Virus record (IMG/VR): IMGVR_UViG_3300028840_004060
Span: 1 to 36,661 of that record
Strand: one strand, 5' to 3'
DNA from: a virus
Length of the DNA stretch: 36,661 bases
In this document: positions 9,844 through 36,661 of the stretch, piece after piece
Numbering within the stretch: position 1 is the stretch's first letter
How the letters are laid out: each line of letters begins with the position of its first letter
Position numbers and translations under genes: made by a program
Notes under the pieces: generated by a model
Told to the model about the DNA's origin: nothing
The model's database searches: none
Seen by the model: the letters and a program-made list of their open reading frames with translations, nothing else

Positions 9844-9875
9844 TTGAATATACAACATTATTGCATTATATGCAA
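9844..9875. promoter_or_regulatory. Overlapping divergent promoters with palindromic operator
   Basis: The minus promoter for exo-ERF reads TTGCAT (-35; plus 9870-9875), a 17-base spacer, then TATATT (-10; plus 9847-9852). The plus promoter for the HTH gene reads TTGAAT (9844-9849), 17 bases, then TATATG (9867-9872). The perfect palindrome TTGCATTATATGCAA (9861-9875) covers the minus -35 and the plus -10, so a bound repressor would block both. The HTH protein encoded at 9891 is the obvious candidate ligand (inferred). Confidence 0.65.
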
Positions 9876-10989: not shown

Positions 10990-11007
10990 TTGTGAATCTC
11001 CTTGAAC

Positions 11008-11045
11008 AAAAAAAAAAGACGTACTACAGTTTAGCACGTCTTTTT
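11008..11045. terminator. Bidirectional terminator / attenuator-like hairpin in the leader of the 10989 gene
   Basis: AAAAAGACGT (11013-11022) pairs with ACGTCTTTTT (11036-11045). There is a T-run on both strands (T5 on plus, about T10 on minus). For the plus strand it ends transcripts coming from 10362-10710. For the minus strand it sits directly before the ribosome site of the 10989 gene, so a transcript starting further right would meet it first, as in attenuation. Confidence 0.7.
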
Positions 11046-11255
11046 ACAAGATTTCCCAACTTAGCCTTTGGGAAAAAATGGAGGAAATAAGGGTTCCTCA
11101 GTCTCGTTACAGTATATCATAACTGTAACTTTCTGAAAGCTTTTTCTCCTTAATAGTATTAACCAGTTTTAAGGAAATTGTGATGCAATCAGGCAAATAT
11201 ACTACAACATATCCCTATTTTATTACAATCCTTAAAGAAAATTATAAGGAAAGTA
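11041..11255. other. Hairpin-rich intergenic region before the primase-helicase gene
   Basis: No gene is visible. It holds TTTCCCAA (about 11052-11059) with TTGGGAAA about 8 bases on, GAGGAA (11082-11087) with TTCCTC (11095-11100), and the perfect 8-bp inverted repeat GTTACAGT (11106-11113) with ACTGTAAC (11122-11129). The last looks like a protein operator. TATACT with TTTCAG upstream on the minus strand overlaps it and could start the 10989 leader. The primase-helicase gene has its own ribosome site (AAGGAAAG) at the right end. Confidence 0.5.
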
Positions 11256-12974
11256 ATGTCTACTATCAAAAAAATGCACTTAGAAGACAGAATTAAAGAA
11301 TTTATATATAATTCAGGGTATGAATCACCAGAAATAATTTACTTCGATTCAGAGTTGCACAGGTTTTCCGGAAGGTCTAGTAAGCCAAGTGACAAAGACG
11401 AATGGTATGTAGCGCACGAGTGGGAGTACCAAGAAAAGGTCTACCAAAAAGTCATTCTTGGATCCTGGAGGCATCCAGACCAAAAACATGTCTGGAACTC
11501 ATGGGGAGAAAGCAAACTGGACCATGATAATTACCAGATCTACAAAGAAAAAGAGAAGCAAGCTAGAGAGGCGTTAGAAGTAGAACGCAAGAAAAGCGAA
11601 GAGGGTGCAGTTAAGTTTTATTATGAATTGCCAGATTTAGAAACAACCCATCCCTATTTACTCGCAAAAGGCTTTGACATTACGTTTGATGGATTAAAGG
11701 TTTATAAAGACCGTCTGGTGATACCAAAAACAGATGAGACTGGAAAGATACGATCGTATGAGATCATCGATCCTGACGGGTCTAAACGATGCGCAAAGGG
11801 ATGTGTGTCTAAAAACACATTCTATAAGCTAACCGGAACCAACAAGAAAATCTATATAGCAGAAGGTTTTGCAACAGCAGCTAGTGTTCATCTTGCAACA
11901 GGAGCAACGGTTTATTGCGCCTTTTCTGCTAATAACTGCAAAAATGTTGCAGCAATCGCAATGTACCACAACAAGAACACACCAGTAACATTATGCCAAG
12001 ATCTAGGTCAATCAGGCGATAAGACTGCGGAGGAGTGCGCAAAGCTTGGCATAGAGAGCATTAAACCTGTCTGTGAAGGCGATGGTACCGACTTCAATGA
12101 TATGTACATGCAATCAGGTGAGGAAGCTGTTAAGAGGCTGTTGTGTGGATCGCTTCCGGAAATGCTAGATATCTTTGACATATTATCACAAGATCCAAAA
12201 GAAACAGAGTGGTACTTCGAGAACCTGATACAAAAAAACGGACGAATACTTATTTCCGCCCTAACAGGTGTAGGTAAGTCTTACTTTGCCTTAGAAATGG
12301 CAATGAGAATGGCTTTGGGTAAAAAGTTCATGAAGTGGAATTGTAAAAACACAGCAAGAGTTTTGTACCTTGAGAATGAAATGGGGTTTAATGAAGTTCA
12401 AAAAAGATTGCATTCAATAGCAAAAGACTTATCTGGAGGAAGGGAACTGCCTTTCATGGACTTTAAAATAATCACTTCTGATCAGTTTGATGAAGGTCCA
12501 GATGTAAATCTTTACTGTAAAAATACAAGGGATATCATTGATGAAATGTCTGAAAAGTTTGATGTCATTTTTATCGACAATTTTTTCTGTATGGCATCTC
12601 TCACAACTAAAGACGGTAAAGAAAATCATCATCAGGCAAGTTCTATCCAAGATGTCCAGAAGTGGATGAAAGAGATGCAAAAAAAAGGTAAGACTATAAT
12701 AGTCTTGCACCATTCAAATAAAGATGGAACAGTCCGTGGCACTCAAAACTTAGAGTATGAGTTTGAAACGCATATCCAGTTAAAGGGAGAAGATCCGGAA
12801 AACATACCAGAAGAGTATGGCAGTATTATCAAGATTTCTTTTCCGAAGATGCGTGGAGGTCTTGCTAAGGAGAAAAAGCCGTTAACCGTCGGTTATAACC
12901 CTAATCTTAAATATTCCAGTAAATGGGAAATATTGCAGGTTAAAAACGGTCAGTATCAAAAATGGATACCCTAA
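11256..12974 (+). CDS. Bifunctional Toprim primase / RepA-like AAA helicase
   Basis: This 572-residue replication protein has a Toprim domain in its N-terminal half: KIYIAEGFATAASVH (198-212, with the catalytic-type Glu203), VTLCQDLG (Asp249) and GTDFND (277-282). The C-terminal half is a RecA/RepA-type ATPase (AAA_25) with Walker A SALTGVGKS (334-342), Walker B DVIFIDN (436-442) and an IIVLHHSN motif (481-488). The N-terminal about 100 residues (RFSGRSSKPSDKDEWYVAHE) resemble the domain that precedes Toprim in plasmid and phage primase-helicases; no zinc-finger Cys set is seen. It should unwind and prime the phage genome for the host polymerase, since no phage polymerase is present. A structured non-coding block follows directly. 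Confidence 0.9.
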   Translation: MSTIKKMHLEDRIKEFIYNSGYESPEIIYFDSELHRFSGRSSKPSDKDEWYVAHEWEYQEKVYQKVILGSWRHPDQKHVWNSWGESKLDHDNYQIYKEKEKQAREALEVERKKSEEGAVKFYYELPDLETTHPYLLAKGFDITFDGLKVYKDRLVIPKTDETGKIRSYEIIDPDGSKRCAKGCVSKNTFYKLTGTNKKIYIAEGFATAASVHLATGATVYCAFSANNCKNVAAIAMYHNKNTPVTLCQDLGQSGDKTAEECAKLGIESIKPVCEGDGTDFNDMYMQSGEEAVKRLLCGSLPEMLDIFDILSQDPKETEWYFENLIQKNGRILISALTGVGKSYFALEMAMRMALGKKFMKWNCKNTARVLYLENEMGFNEVQKRLHSIAKDLSGGRELPFMDFKIITSDQFDEGPDVNLYCKNTRDIIDEMSEKFDVIFIDNFFCMASLTTKDGKENHHQASSIQDVQKWMKEMQKKGKTIIVLHHSNKDGTVRGTQNLEYEFETHIQLKGEDPENIPEEYGSIIKISFPKMRGGLAKEKKPLTVGYNPNLKYSSKWEILQVKNGQYQKWIP

Positions 12975-12998
12975 CCACAACAAACAGTTAATCCAACC

Positions 12999-13245
12999 GT
13001 TACGTGGCGTAACACGATGCCAGTGAAAAATAGTAATTATAGTTTAAAAAAAGTTCTTTATCAGCTGAGAAGGCAAAAGCCCGAAGGGACCACCGTGGTG
13101 TGTTGGCGTAAGCCGGAACACAACCAAAGGTTGGGGGGGTTTAAAATGGGTGATTTCGGCAGGGCAAAGCCTTGCCCGTCCCCACCCCCCAATCCTCTTG
13201 GCTCACGCCAGATCGGGGGGCGGAATCCCCCATTTTACCCCCTTT
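12999..13245 (+). ncRNA. Highly structured G/C-rich non-coding element (candidate structured RNA or replication origin)
   Basis: A chain of hairpins fills the 315-base gap after the primase-helicase. GTTACG 12999-13004 pairs with CGTAAC 13008-13013. GGC-AAAA-GCC lies at 13072-13081. GTGTTGGC 13100-13107 is closed by a GTAA (GNRA) tetraloop and pairs with GCC 13112-13114 and AACAC 13117-13121. CAACC-AAA-GGTTG lies at 13121-13133. A long imperfect stem pairs 13135-13160 with 13220-13242 and encloses GGGCAA-AGCC-TTGCCC (13162-13177) and CCCCCC...TGGC-TCAC-GCCA...GGGGGG (13185-13220). The G/C-rich runs contrast sharply with the AT-rich neighbours. No known RNA class was recognised. The orientation is assumed from the GNRA loop and flanking genes. 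Confidence 0.55.
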
Positions 13246-13288
13246 GTGCCCAGCTGTCAAGAAGAAAATAACCAAGAGGGAGTAAATC

Positions 13289-34379: not shown

Positions 34380-35071
34380 TGGTCAGCGCAGCACAATTCT
34401 TGGAAAGATCTATGACAGGGGGATACAGTGCAGATGAGATACGAAACTTTCTGGAAACAGCTGCAAAACGAGATCCCAAACAAAAGGAAGCCTTGAAGCT
34501 TTTAGACACTGCAACAGATACGATGGCTAAGGAGGAAAAATCCTCTACGTCACTAGGGGATGTGGTTGGTAAAGCGGCTAAAACAGCAGCCGGAGTTGCT
34601 GTACCAGCAGCCTTAACGTATGCAGCAGCTGGACCCATAGCAGGCGCAATAGGAGGAATGGGAGCAGAAGCAGCAGGTGCATTAGGTGCCGGCGAAGCAA
34701 TGGCAGGAGCGGAAGGTGCAGGAGCAGGACTTTCACAAATGCTAAAAAATATGAATCCTAAAGACTTAATGAATCTCTGGAATACATACCAAAAGCAAGG
34801 CGCAGGCGCAACACTGGCACAGTTTGCACAAAGTCAGATGAAAGGACAAGCAGGCGGTGCAATGGGACAACCTCAGCAATCGACAGGTCTTGAATTGCCA
34901 GAAGAGATAAGATCTATTGCGTTGAGGCAGCTACAACAACAAGGAGACCCATTACAAGCATCCCAAATAACAGCGGCAGAAGTTCTTCGCGGTCCCCCTT
35001 TAAGTGTCGCAAGCTATGCCACAGCAGACAATGCCACCACAACAGTCTGGAGGGATACGATCTATGCCTGA
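34379..35071 (+). CDS. Putative DNA-ejection (internal virion) protein 3, with altered C-terminus
   Basis: This 230-residue protein has a long hydrophobic Ala/Gly segment (about 64-118: AGVAVPAALTYAAAGPIAGA, GGMGAEAAGALGAGEAMAGA), likely membrane-active during DNA injection, and a Gln-rich part (LRQLQQQGDPLQASQITAAE). After base 35004 the frame is displaced relative to copy A (2-346): the end reads SVASYATADNATTTVWRDTI instead of the copy A ending MPDDQLMALMKQRGLL. In another frame the copy A ending is still encoded (35005-35113). The intact protein would therefore have about 60 more or different residues. Confidence 0.65.
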   Translation: MVSAAQFLERSMTGGYSADEIRNFLETAAKRDPKQKEALKLLDTATDTMAKEEKSSTSLGDVVGKAAKTAAGVAVPAALTYAAAGPIAGAIGGMGAEAAGALGAGEAMAGAEGAGAGLSQMLKNMNPKDLMNLWNTYQKQGAGATLAQFAQSQMKGQAGGAMGQPQQSTGLELPEEIRSIALRQLQQQGDPLQASQITAAEVLRGPPLSVASYATADNATTTVWRDTIYA

Positions 35072-35110
35072 CGATCAGTTAATGGCGCTAATGAAACAAA
35101 GAGGACTATT

Positions 35111-35690
35111 GTGACACTTAGTCAAACTCTTTTAGGTTCATCACTTGGAATAGGCGCAAGAGTACTTGAAGGATTTAACAGGCGCAAAAGGAACAAGTAC
35201 CAGAGAGATGAAAACCTTTTTTCTAAACAGATAACTAAAGAGTTTGATAGAAGGCTACAACAAGAGGCTAACAGGAGAGCATCAGAAGAAACATCTATTG
35301 ATGAAGAGTTTAACCGTCGGTTAATGGATGAGTACAAGCGACGATTGGCAGAGGGACAGGTGCAAGCGCCTACACCTTCACCTCTTCCAGATACAGACAT
35401 CCCAACTGCACCTTCCAAGTTCAAACATATCAGGATTTAAATACGACCCAAAAAGCAAACAAATGTTTGTACAATTTTTAGACAAATATCCGAATCGTAA
35501 TGGACCAAAATATGTATATGAAAATGTGGACCCGTTTATATACGAAGTGATCAAAAGGGGAGCTGTAGCACCAAAAACGTCCGGTAAAAACAAGTATCAC
35601 ACTTGGTATAAGGATGTGTCTCCCAGCTTAGGAGCTTCTGTTTACCACCTGCTTAAAATGGGCAATTACTCGTATAAAAAAATTGGTTAG
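35111..35690 (+). pseudogene. KTSC-domain protein, copy B, frameshifted
   Basis: The GTG start overlaps the stop of the displaced ejection-protein ending (GTGA), as ATGA does in copy A. The first part (MTLSQTLLGSSLGIGARVLE, then the charged helix) ends at 35440; the KTSC part is open in another frame from 35328 and ends at 35690 (SNISGFKYDPKSKQMFVQFL...SLGASVYHLLKMGNY). Copy A has 582 bases, this copy 580: two bases are missing around 35419-35424, at GCACCTTCCAAG versus GCACCATATCCAAG. It is either a damaged gene or a sequence error near the contig end. Confidence 0.7.
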
Positions 35691-35965
35691 TCAATATCTC
35701 TTAGATATAATTTATCTATAAAAGTTGTATTTTCATAGAAATCCCATTCCCATTCAACTTTTCTAGTTTTGAGATTGTATTCACCATTTCCTTCCAATAC
35801 CTTTTTGAAGTTCTTTGATGTTATAACCTGAACAAACACATCTTCTGTAAACTCTTTTTTCAGATAATTATTATATATTTTATTTAAATTATCCCCAGTA
35901 CCTGCAAGATCATTCCATCCACCACTAGGATAAAACCTAAGAAACTCGAATATTAGGTATTTCAT
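35687..35965 (-). CDS. Small protein with FYPSGGW motif (passenger gene of copy B)
   Basis: This 92-residue protein starts MKYLIFEFLRFYPSGGWNDL, then AGTGDNLNKIYNNYLKKEFT and VFVQVITSKNFKKVLEGNGE. It shares the KYLxF...FYPxGG...D opening with the gene at 10726-10989, while the rest is very different. Its ATG overlaps the HTH stop (ATGA). In copy A the same place is taken by the 31-residue membrane peptide. Function unknown. Confidence 0.7.
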   Translation of the reverse strand: MKYLIFEFLRFYPSGGWNDLAGTGDNLNKIYNNYLKKEFTEDVFVQVITSKNFKKVLEGNGEYNLKTRKVEWEWDFYENTTFIDKLYLRDID

Positions 35966-36237
35966 TCCTCATCCTCATTCATGCTATTGTAAACATCTTT
36001 TAAATCCACGTGGGCGATCCTGTGTATTTCTGTCACGGGTATGCGATAATTGGCATTTTTTCCCTGTGTTAAACGAAGTGCTATGATCTTTCCGTCCCTA
36101 ATACCCTTATACACAGTATTATAATGTACACCAAGTTCTTCCGCAAACTCTTTCACTTTATAAAACCGTTTCAAACTGTCACCTGCCTTGCAATTGTATT
36201 TAACACTGTTACCTGCATCACCATTGTTTGACAGCAT
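35962..36237 (-). CDS. Excisionase/MerR-type HTH protein (copy B)
   Basis: This 91-residue protein is homologous over its whole length with 1017-1283: FYKVKEFAEELGVHYNTVYK in the HTH and DGKIIALRLTQGKNANYRIP in the wing. It starts with ATG (copy A has GTG) and differs mainly in the first 20 and last 15 residues. It is divergent from the fibre gene at 36273 by 35 bases, the same arrangement as in copy A, so its regulatory link to the fibre or to its passenger gene is probably conserved. Confidence 0.8.
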   Translation of the reverse strand: MLSNNGDAGNSVKYNCKAGDSLKRFYKVKEFAEELGVHYNTVYKGIRDGKIIALRLTQGKNANYRIPVTEIHRIAHVDLKDVYNSMNEDEE

Positions 36238-36272
36238 AGTTTATTTTGAAAGAAAAAACTTTGAGGTTAAAA

Positions 36273-36661
36273 ATGACAAAGGCAATTGGGTTAAGTGGAT
36301 TGGTAAATGTTGCACCTGGTGCAATTCAGGGACATGGTGCGCCACCTAGTTCTGCTTCCGGAAATCTTGGACAATCATACTTCGATATTGATACATCTCC
36401 ACCAACACAATACATTTATAATGGTTCTACTTGGGCACAAGGTGGTAATGAACTAGCAACAACAACTTCTCCAGGTATTGTCCTTATCAATACAGATGGG
36501 ACGCTTGCAGGAGCAGATGATACCACAGTTCCCACATCTCTTGCGGTCAAAACCTATGCGGATGCCTTGGCAATTGCCGGTGCTCCTGTTTCAACAGAAG
36601 CTGTTCAAGGGATTGGTGAGCTTGCAACAGATGCTGAAGCAATTGCAGGAACAGCCTCTAC
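36273..36661 (+). CDS. Tail-fibre protein N-terminus (copy B, cut by window edge)
   Basis: This is the first 129 residues of a fibre homologous to 1324-3771: MTKAIGLSGLVNVAPGAIQG, GQSYFDIDTSPPTQYIYNGS and LAVKTYADALAIAGAP are nearly the same, while from about residue 112 onward (STEAVQGIGELATDAEAIAG) it differs from copy A. The ribosome site TTGAGG is conserved. Divergence begins where the receptor-specific part would start. The rest is beyond the window. Confidence 0.8.
   Translation, partial: MTKAIGLSGLVNVAPGAIQGHGAPPSSASGNLGQSYFDIDTSPPTQYIYNGSTWAQGGNELATTTSPGIVLINTDGTLAGADDTTVPTSLAVKTYADALAIAGAPVSTEAVQGIGELATDAEAIAGTAS

Follow-up and report, generated by a model that had tools for sequence, protein, structure and literature searches.

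A hairpin-packed structure is present directly after the primase-helicase gene of a 36.7-kb phage genome (IMG/VR record IMGVR_UViG_3300028840_004060, positions 1 to 36,661; this whole stretch of 36,661 nucleotides is the window analysed here), and we consider it somewhat probable that the intergenic region at 12975-13288, the core of which is the hairpin element, serves as replication origin region of the phage and forms a module with the upstream Toprim_3 + AAA_25 gene. The element probably marks the start of replication because an origin-like cluster built of repeats usually occupies this place beside relatives of the primase-helicase gene. The observations behind this reading are the position, fold and dyad of the element, its inverted units, the family-wide placement of clusters, and the absence of both an HTH domain and an iteron cluster; from these we infer origin function, a site of opening and recognition of hairpins by the primase.

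The intergenic region and its folded element

The intergenic region extends from the primase-helicase stop at 12974 to the start of the next gene at 13289 and holds, in this order, a small inverted repeat, an AT-rich run and the G/C-rich element (Table 1). The original prediction had drawn a single interval, 12999-13245, of which the stems are confirmed and the bounds are not: the element is better placed at 13054-13264, and 12999-13053 consists of the separate inverted repeat and AT-rich run. Within 13054-13264, 15 helices of at least 3 bp are found in each of the MFE and centroid structures, with mean pair probabilities of 0.73-1.00, so that the density of stems proposed earlier (at least seven within 250 bases) is borne out; the centroid closely tracks the MFE structure and pair probabilities are high. 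The GNRA-capped hairpin of that proposal corresponds to GGC-GTAA-GCC at 13105-13114, and its long outer stem, placed at 13135-13160 with 13220-13242, is recovered with slightly narrower arms (Table 1).

Table 1 Features of the primase-helicase gene and the region 3' of it
Feature	Position	Strand	Basis or remark
Primase-helicase gene	11256-12974	+	Toprim_3 + AAA_25 domain matches
Small inverted repeat GTTACG-TGG-CGTAAC	12999-13013	.	24 nt past primase stop; direct sequence reading
AT-rich run, ~87% A+T, candidate unwinding element	13024-13061	.	Direct reading and inference
G/C-rich multi-hairpin element, imperfect dyad	13054-13264	.	Fold energy, GC, self-complement scores
Outer arm CAGCTG, pairs with 13251-13256	13062-13067	.	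Mean pair probability 1.00
Mini-hairpin TGGCGTAAGCC, GTAA loop	13104-13114	+	Top-strand copy of repeated unit TGGCGTRAGCC
Long imperfect stem, left arm	13137-13158	.	82% complementary to right arm
8-bp hairpin GGCAGGGC/GCCTTGCC	13158-13176	.	From predicted fold
CCCCCC...GGGGGG hairpin around 13199-13210	13185-13220	.	
Mini-hairpin TGGCGTGAGCC	13200-13210	-	Bottom-strand copy of repeated unit TGGCGTRAGCC
Long imperfect stem, right arm	13221-13242	.	Pairs with 13137-13158
Sigma-70-like near-consensus promoter TTGACA-17-TAAAAT, leftward	13232-13260	-	May be chance
Next gene, 162 aa	13289-13777	+	No family match

The compositional break that had been noted in this AT-rich genome is real, as the element contains the most GC-rich stretch of the genome (0.597 over 196 nt; next best 0.566; genome 0.395). 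The plus strand of 12980-13290 has an MFE of -111.4 kcal/mol (z -3.7), a value as low as which was reached in 0 of 100 dinucleotide shuffles, and the minus strand one of -115.4 kcal/mol (z -3.4 against dinucleotide shuffles). On each strand the genome minimum of fold energy lies at this site, and the three lowest-energy 200-nt windows of the genome all fall at the element (-89.6, -82.2 and -70.4; next -64.3; n=730 windows). It stands out by absolute stability and not by z, because several other genome windows have a lower z, the lowest being -5.8 at 11051. That lowest value belongs to a distinct minus-strand region at 11000-11269. There, a promoter close to consensus (11269-11241) precedes several leader hairpins and a strong terminator (11045-11013), upstream of a minus-strand gene (phrog_1411) that starts near 10990, an arrangement that looks like an attenuated leader.

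Cumulative GC skew, proposed earlier as a check, follows gene strand and orientation and marks no origin. The element is spanned by an 84-aa ORF (13017-13271), which does not look coding: its score of -0.114 per codon resembles that of spurious ORFs and not that of the primase (+0.145), and 5.6% of shuffles contain an ORF of this length.

Dyad and repeated units

Taken as a whole, the element forms an imperfect dyad with its centre near 13159, and CAGCTG, TGGCGTRAGCC and TTGGGGGG are found inverted on its two sides. Under one scoring scheme its self-complement score was reached by 0.2-0.4% of shuffles and by 3-6 of 365 genome windows; the gapped local self-complement score under a heavier-penalty scheme was not significant. 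TGGCGTRA occurs three times in the intergenic region (at 13005, 13104 and 13203), a level of three or more degenerate 8-mer copies that is matched in 4% of shuffles. The starts of these copies lie exactly 99 and 99 nt apart, which may be chance. No iteron cluster is present in 12975-13288, where no 7-mer exceeds two copies and the best degenerate 8-mer has three, and no clusters resembling those of the relatives described below were found elsewhere in the phage genome.

The primase-helicase gene and its relatives

Pfam matches place Toprim_3 at residues 199-289 (6e-12) and the AAA_25 hexameric-helicase-like domain at residues 309-491 (5e-23) of the gene product. The helicase part also weakly matches RSF1010 RepA (1g8y; E 0.004); as four designed proteins score better, this likeness is only a hint. 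Among the neighbours, the replication genes encode an Erf-like annealing protein, an exonuclease, an HTH protein, the primase-helicase and a RusA resolvase, in a layout resembling that of Idiomarinaceae, Salicola and Alteromonas phages. Single-sequence AlphaFold models were unusable (pLDDT 45 for the downstream 162-aa protein and 35 for the primase).

Single-protein scans of viral contigs with the primase, the downstream gene and the terminase gave no close homologues, nor did a scan of bacterial genomes with RusA, and tetranucleotide comparison gave no clear match for the host. Alignment-based and whole-genome searches recovered terminases of up to 42% identity and, for the primase, full-length relatives sharing about 23-32% (higher over short segments). 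The 97 non-redundant relatives compared here, mostly of 23-32% identity, come from phages, bacterial genomes and viral contigs, and a cluster was scored wherever one 7-mer occurred at least 5 times in the 400 nt 3' of the primase gene. Such a cluster lies directly 3' of the primase in 52 of the 97, and in 46 relatives this cluster is denser than every other window of its own locus. The 45 relatives that miss the five-copy level are mostly distant ones, the share with a cluster being greater among the best-scoring relatives. The motifs vary by lineage (GGTACA, GGGACA, GGTTCA, GGTAACA, CGTAAC, GGACCA), and since they occur in both orientations the post-primase regions of the relatives fold back. 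In several relatives (L009, L065 and L087) the iterons are CGTAAC-type motifs, which may be compared with the small inverted repeat of the phage.

Folding at this position is not confined to the phage. In the best-scoring viral relative (L010) the lowest 200-nt fold, -91.3, lies 50 nt past the primase stop (next best -65.4), and the GC content of this strongest-fold region is 0.50 vs 0.41 for its own genome; the equivalent post-primase fold of the phage is -87.6 vs -53.4. Among the closest prophage relatives examined, the majority (L298-L300, L304-L308, L314 and L315) carry two inverted iterons shortly past the primase stop that together form a stem-loop of 18-20 bp, imperfect in a few of them. 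Larger iteron clusters are found in L301, L309 and L310 and a weaker, more scattered set in L311-L313, while L293 and L302 are more distant prophage relatives. Five aligned prophage stem-loops show paired changes, with C-to-A in one arm and G-to-T in the other, and the resulting changes from GTCCC to GTACC preserve pairing. Because the arms are inverted protein sites, these paired changes indicate that the inverted arrangement is kept, rather than RNA folding. The stem-loop-bearing prophages all belong to one bacterial order, and the recurrent stem-loop after their primase-HTH gene is a candidate origin type in itself. The primase genes of L312 and L313 each carry a single in-frame TAG codon and are otherwise intact.

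Among these relatives the phage is an odd member. Its primase-helicase ends before the C-terminal HTH that is present in L010 (where it matches Pfam only below cutoffs) and in most of L298-L315, and no iteron cluster follows the gene. Both parts of the usual recognition pair, HTH and iterons, are therefore missing, and a large folded dyad remains, which could not be aligned with the origin of any relative. Judging from this one genome, loss of the HTH may be linked to loss of the iteron cluster. The original prediction of an origin recognised by the neighbouring primase-helicase accordingly is supported in its first part, by position, as the relatives' iteron or inverted-repeat clusters often lie 3' of the gene, and is not supported for direct recognition, the C-terminal HTH being absent.

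Comparison with known replication systems

The phage resembles the iteron origin of the P4 alpha primase-helicase type in having a Toprim primase fused to a helicase, with the gene adjacent to a noncoding region rich in inverted repeats. It differs in lacking an iteron cluster as well as a C-terminal winged-helix/HTH origin-binding domain on the primase-helicase, and its helicase is AAA_25/RepA-like.

Replication of the Sulfolobus plasmid pRN1 requires a stem-loop that lies some 54 nt past the end of the primase-helicase gene, and the same arrangement was proposed by the pRN1 authors for Bordetella phage BIP-1 (PMC4234260). Shared with the phage are a large foldback 3' of the gene (about 80 nt past the stop, vs 54 nt in pRN1) and the absence of iterons. 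In contrast, pRN1 encodes an archaeo-eukaryotic primase (AEP) with an SF3 helicase and a winged helix where the phage has Toprim_3 + AAA_25, and its stem-loop of about 100 nt is simpler than the phage element, which is multi-branched and not one stem.

RSF1010 possesses one ssi hairpin per strand, recognised by the primase after the helicase has opened the DNA (PMC4434180, PMC4234260). Its oriV (ssiA/ssiB, with RepA, RepB' and RepC) may have a counterpart in a possible inverted hairpin pair, one per strand, of the phage: the two TGGCGTRAGCC hairpins, inverted relative to each other at 13104 (+) and 13210 (-), are candidate ssi-like units with putative recognition by the primase, possibly resembling ssiA/ssiB in arrangement. 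The phage helicase domain is weakly similar to RSF1010 RepA; differences are that the Toprim_3 primase is not RepB', that no RepC homologue was identified and that iterons are lacking. Since the primase type differs from those of both pRN1 and RSF1010, we take the relation to these two systems to be a likeness of mechanism and not membership.

Alternative explanations

The main rival to the origin reading, although a rather unlikely one, is an RNA with no part in an origin: either a structured non-coding RNA encoded by the phage or a structured intercistronic RNA of the plus-strand operon. The genome's lowest fold energy, the 15 well-defined helices of high probability and the GNRA-type loop would all suit such an RNA, and the element sits between co-directional genes and hence is transcribed if the operon is. 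Selection on an RNA usually leads to accumulation of G-U pairs on its own strand. Here the plus and minus strands of the element fold similarly (-98.8 and -104.6), with 2 and 5 G-T pairs, respectively, out of 76. There is thus no sign from folding of the transcript rather than the DNA as the folded molecule; few G-T pairs and near-equal folding of the strands are as expected of DNA palindromes, and the high pair probabilities fit a structured RNA equally. Known RNA families offer only a general likeness in their compact multi-helix fold: Rfam gave 0 matches in the phage genome at the gathering threshold and only sub-threshold ones at a permissive threshold (best RAGATH-5, 16 bits vs a cutoff of 50), in agreement with the earlier statement that no described RNA class was recognised, and no tRNA or tmRNA was found. 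DNA relatives of the element were absent from the public phages, plasmids, viral contigs and gathered loci searched, and element DNA patterns gave none, or two matches judged to be chance. Further points against an RNA are that the position matches that of the relatives' repeat clusters and that the only near-consensus promoter in the element, which could be chance, is on the minus strand.

An improbable alternative is a cis-acting leader controlling translation of the gene at 13289, the start codon of which lies 25 nt past the element. In this case the apical CCTCTTGG (13194-13201) would pair with its perfect 8-nt complement CCAAGAGG (13272-13279), which overlaps the Shine-Dalgarno region. 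However, that region is at most about half paired in the ensemble (0.01-0.52), a CCTCTT-like sequence complements any Shine-Dalgarno sequence by chance, and the partner bases lie partly within a strong hairpin.

Comparably slim is the chance that a mobile palindrome, MITE- or REP-like, was inserted here, although its foreign composition (GC 0.60 in a 0.395 genome) and terminal inverted repeats TTCTT..CAGCTG would fit. No second copy exists in the phage genome, none was found in the phages or plasmids searched or in 274 sampled genomes of one bacterial class (which may not be that of the host), no target-site duplication is seen, and again the position is that of the relatives' repeat clusters.

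Least probable is an origin in which an antisense RNA from the minus-strand TTGACA-17-TAAAAT promoter in the right arm primes or controls replication, or in which one strand, once folded, works as a single-strand promoter of the F Frpo/M13 type, as this site, one of just two genome-wide scoring at least 11/12 and located within the dyad arms, compares to 0.85 such sites expected per shuffled genome, its two boxes are not within one continuous duplex of the fold, and such a transcript would have no clear terminator.

Proposed mechanism and implications

If the preferred reading, a replication origin with the folded dyad as its core, is correct, initiation may proceed as follows. The AT-rich run would open and the hexameric helicase enter there, after which the GC-rich dyad would fold into hairpins within the exposed strands. 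The inverted TGGCGTRAGCC copies, one per strand, could then serve as single-strand initiation sites for the primase, the two sites giving one leading-strand start in each direction. With the HTH missing, recognition of the duplex would require another protein, for which the 162-aa product of the gene at 13289 and the HTH protein encoded at 9861 are candidates. A more novel but rather unlikely reading is that this is an iteron-free origin at which an HTH-less primase-helicase is guided by a large folded DNA dyad, each strand of which carries an initiation hairpin (or, instead of the dyad, by a novel structured RNA transcribed there), which would represent a switch from a sequence-read to a structure-read origin within one module family.

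The relatives and the phage form a series, from HTH with iterons (most close relatives) and iteron stem-loops (the prophage set) to the present case, which has neither but carries a large folded dyad. If the element is an origin, recognition in the primase-helicase module can shift from sequence to structure, and one gene together with one 300-bp region would provide a small two-part test system. For finding origins in unannotated phages and prophages, the repeat cluster that follows the gene across the family is useful in itself.

Elsewhere in the genome, positions 1-144 are identical to 34861-35004, and beyond them the two ends stay similar, at about 75-85% identity, for a further ~1650 bases (1-1802 and 34861-36661). 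The record may wrap, with two diverged versions of one region (strain variants) joined, or the ends may represent a real duplication.
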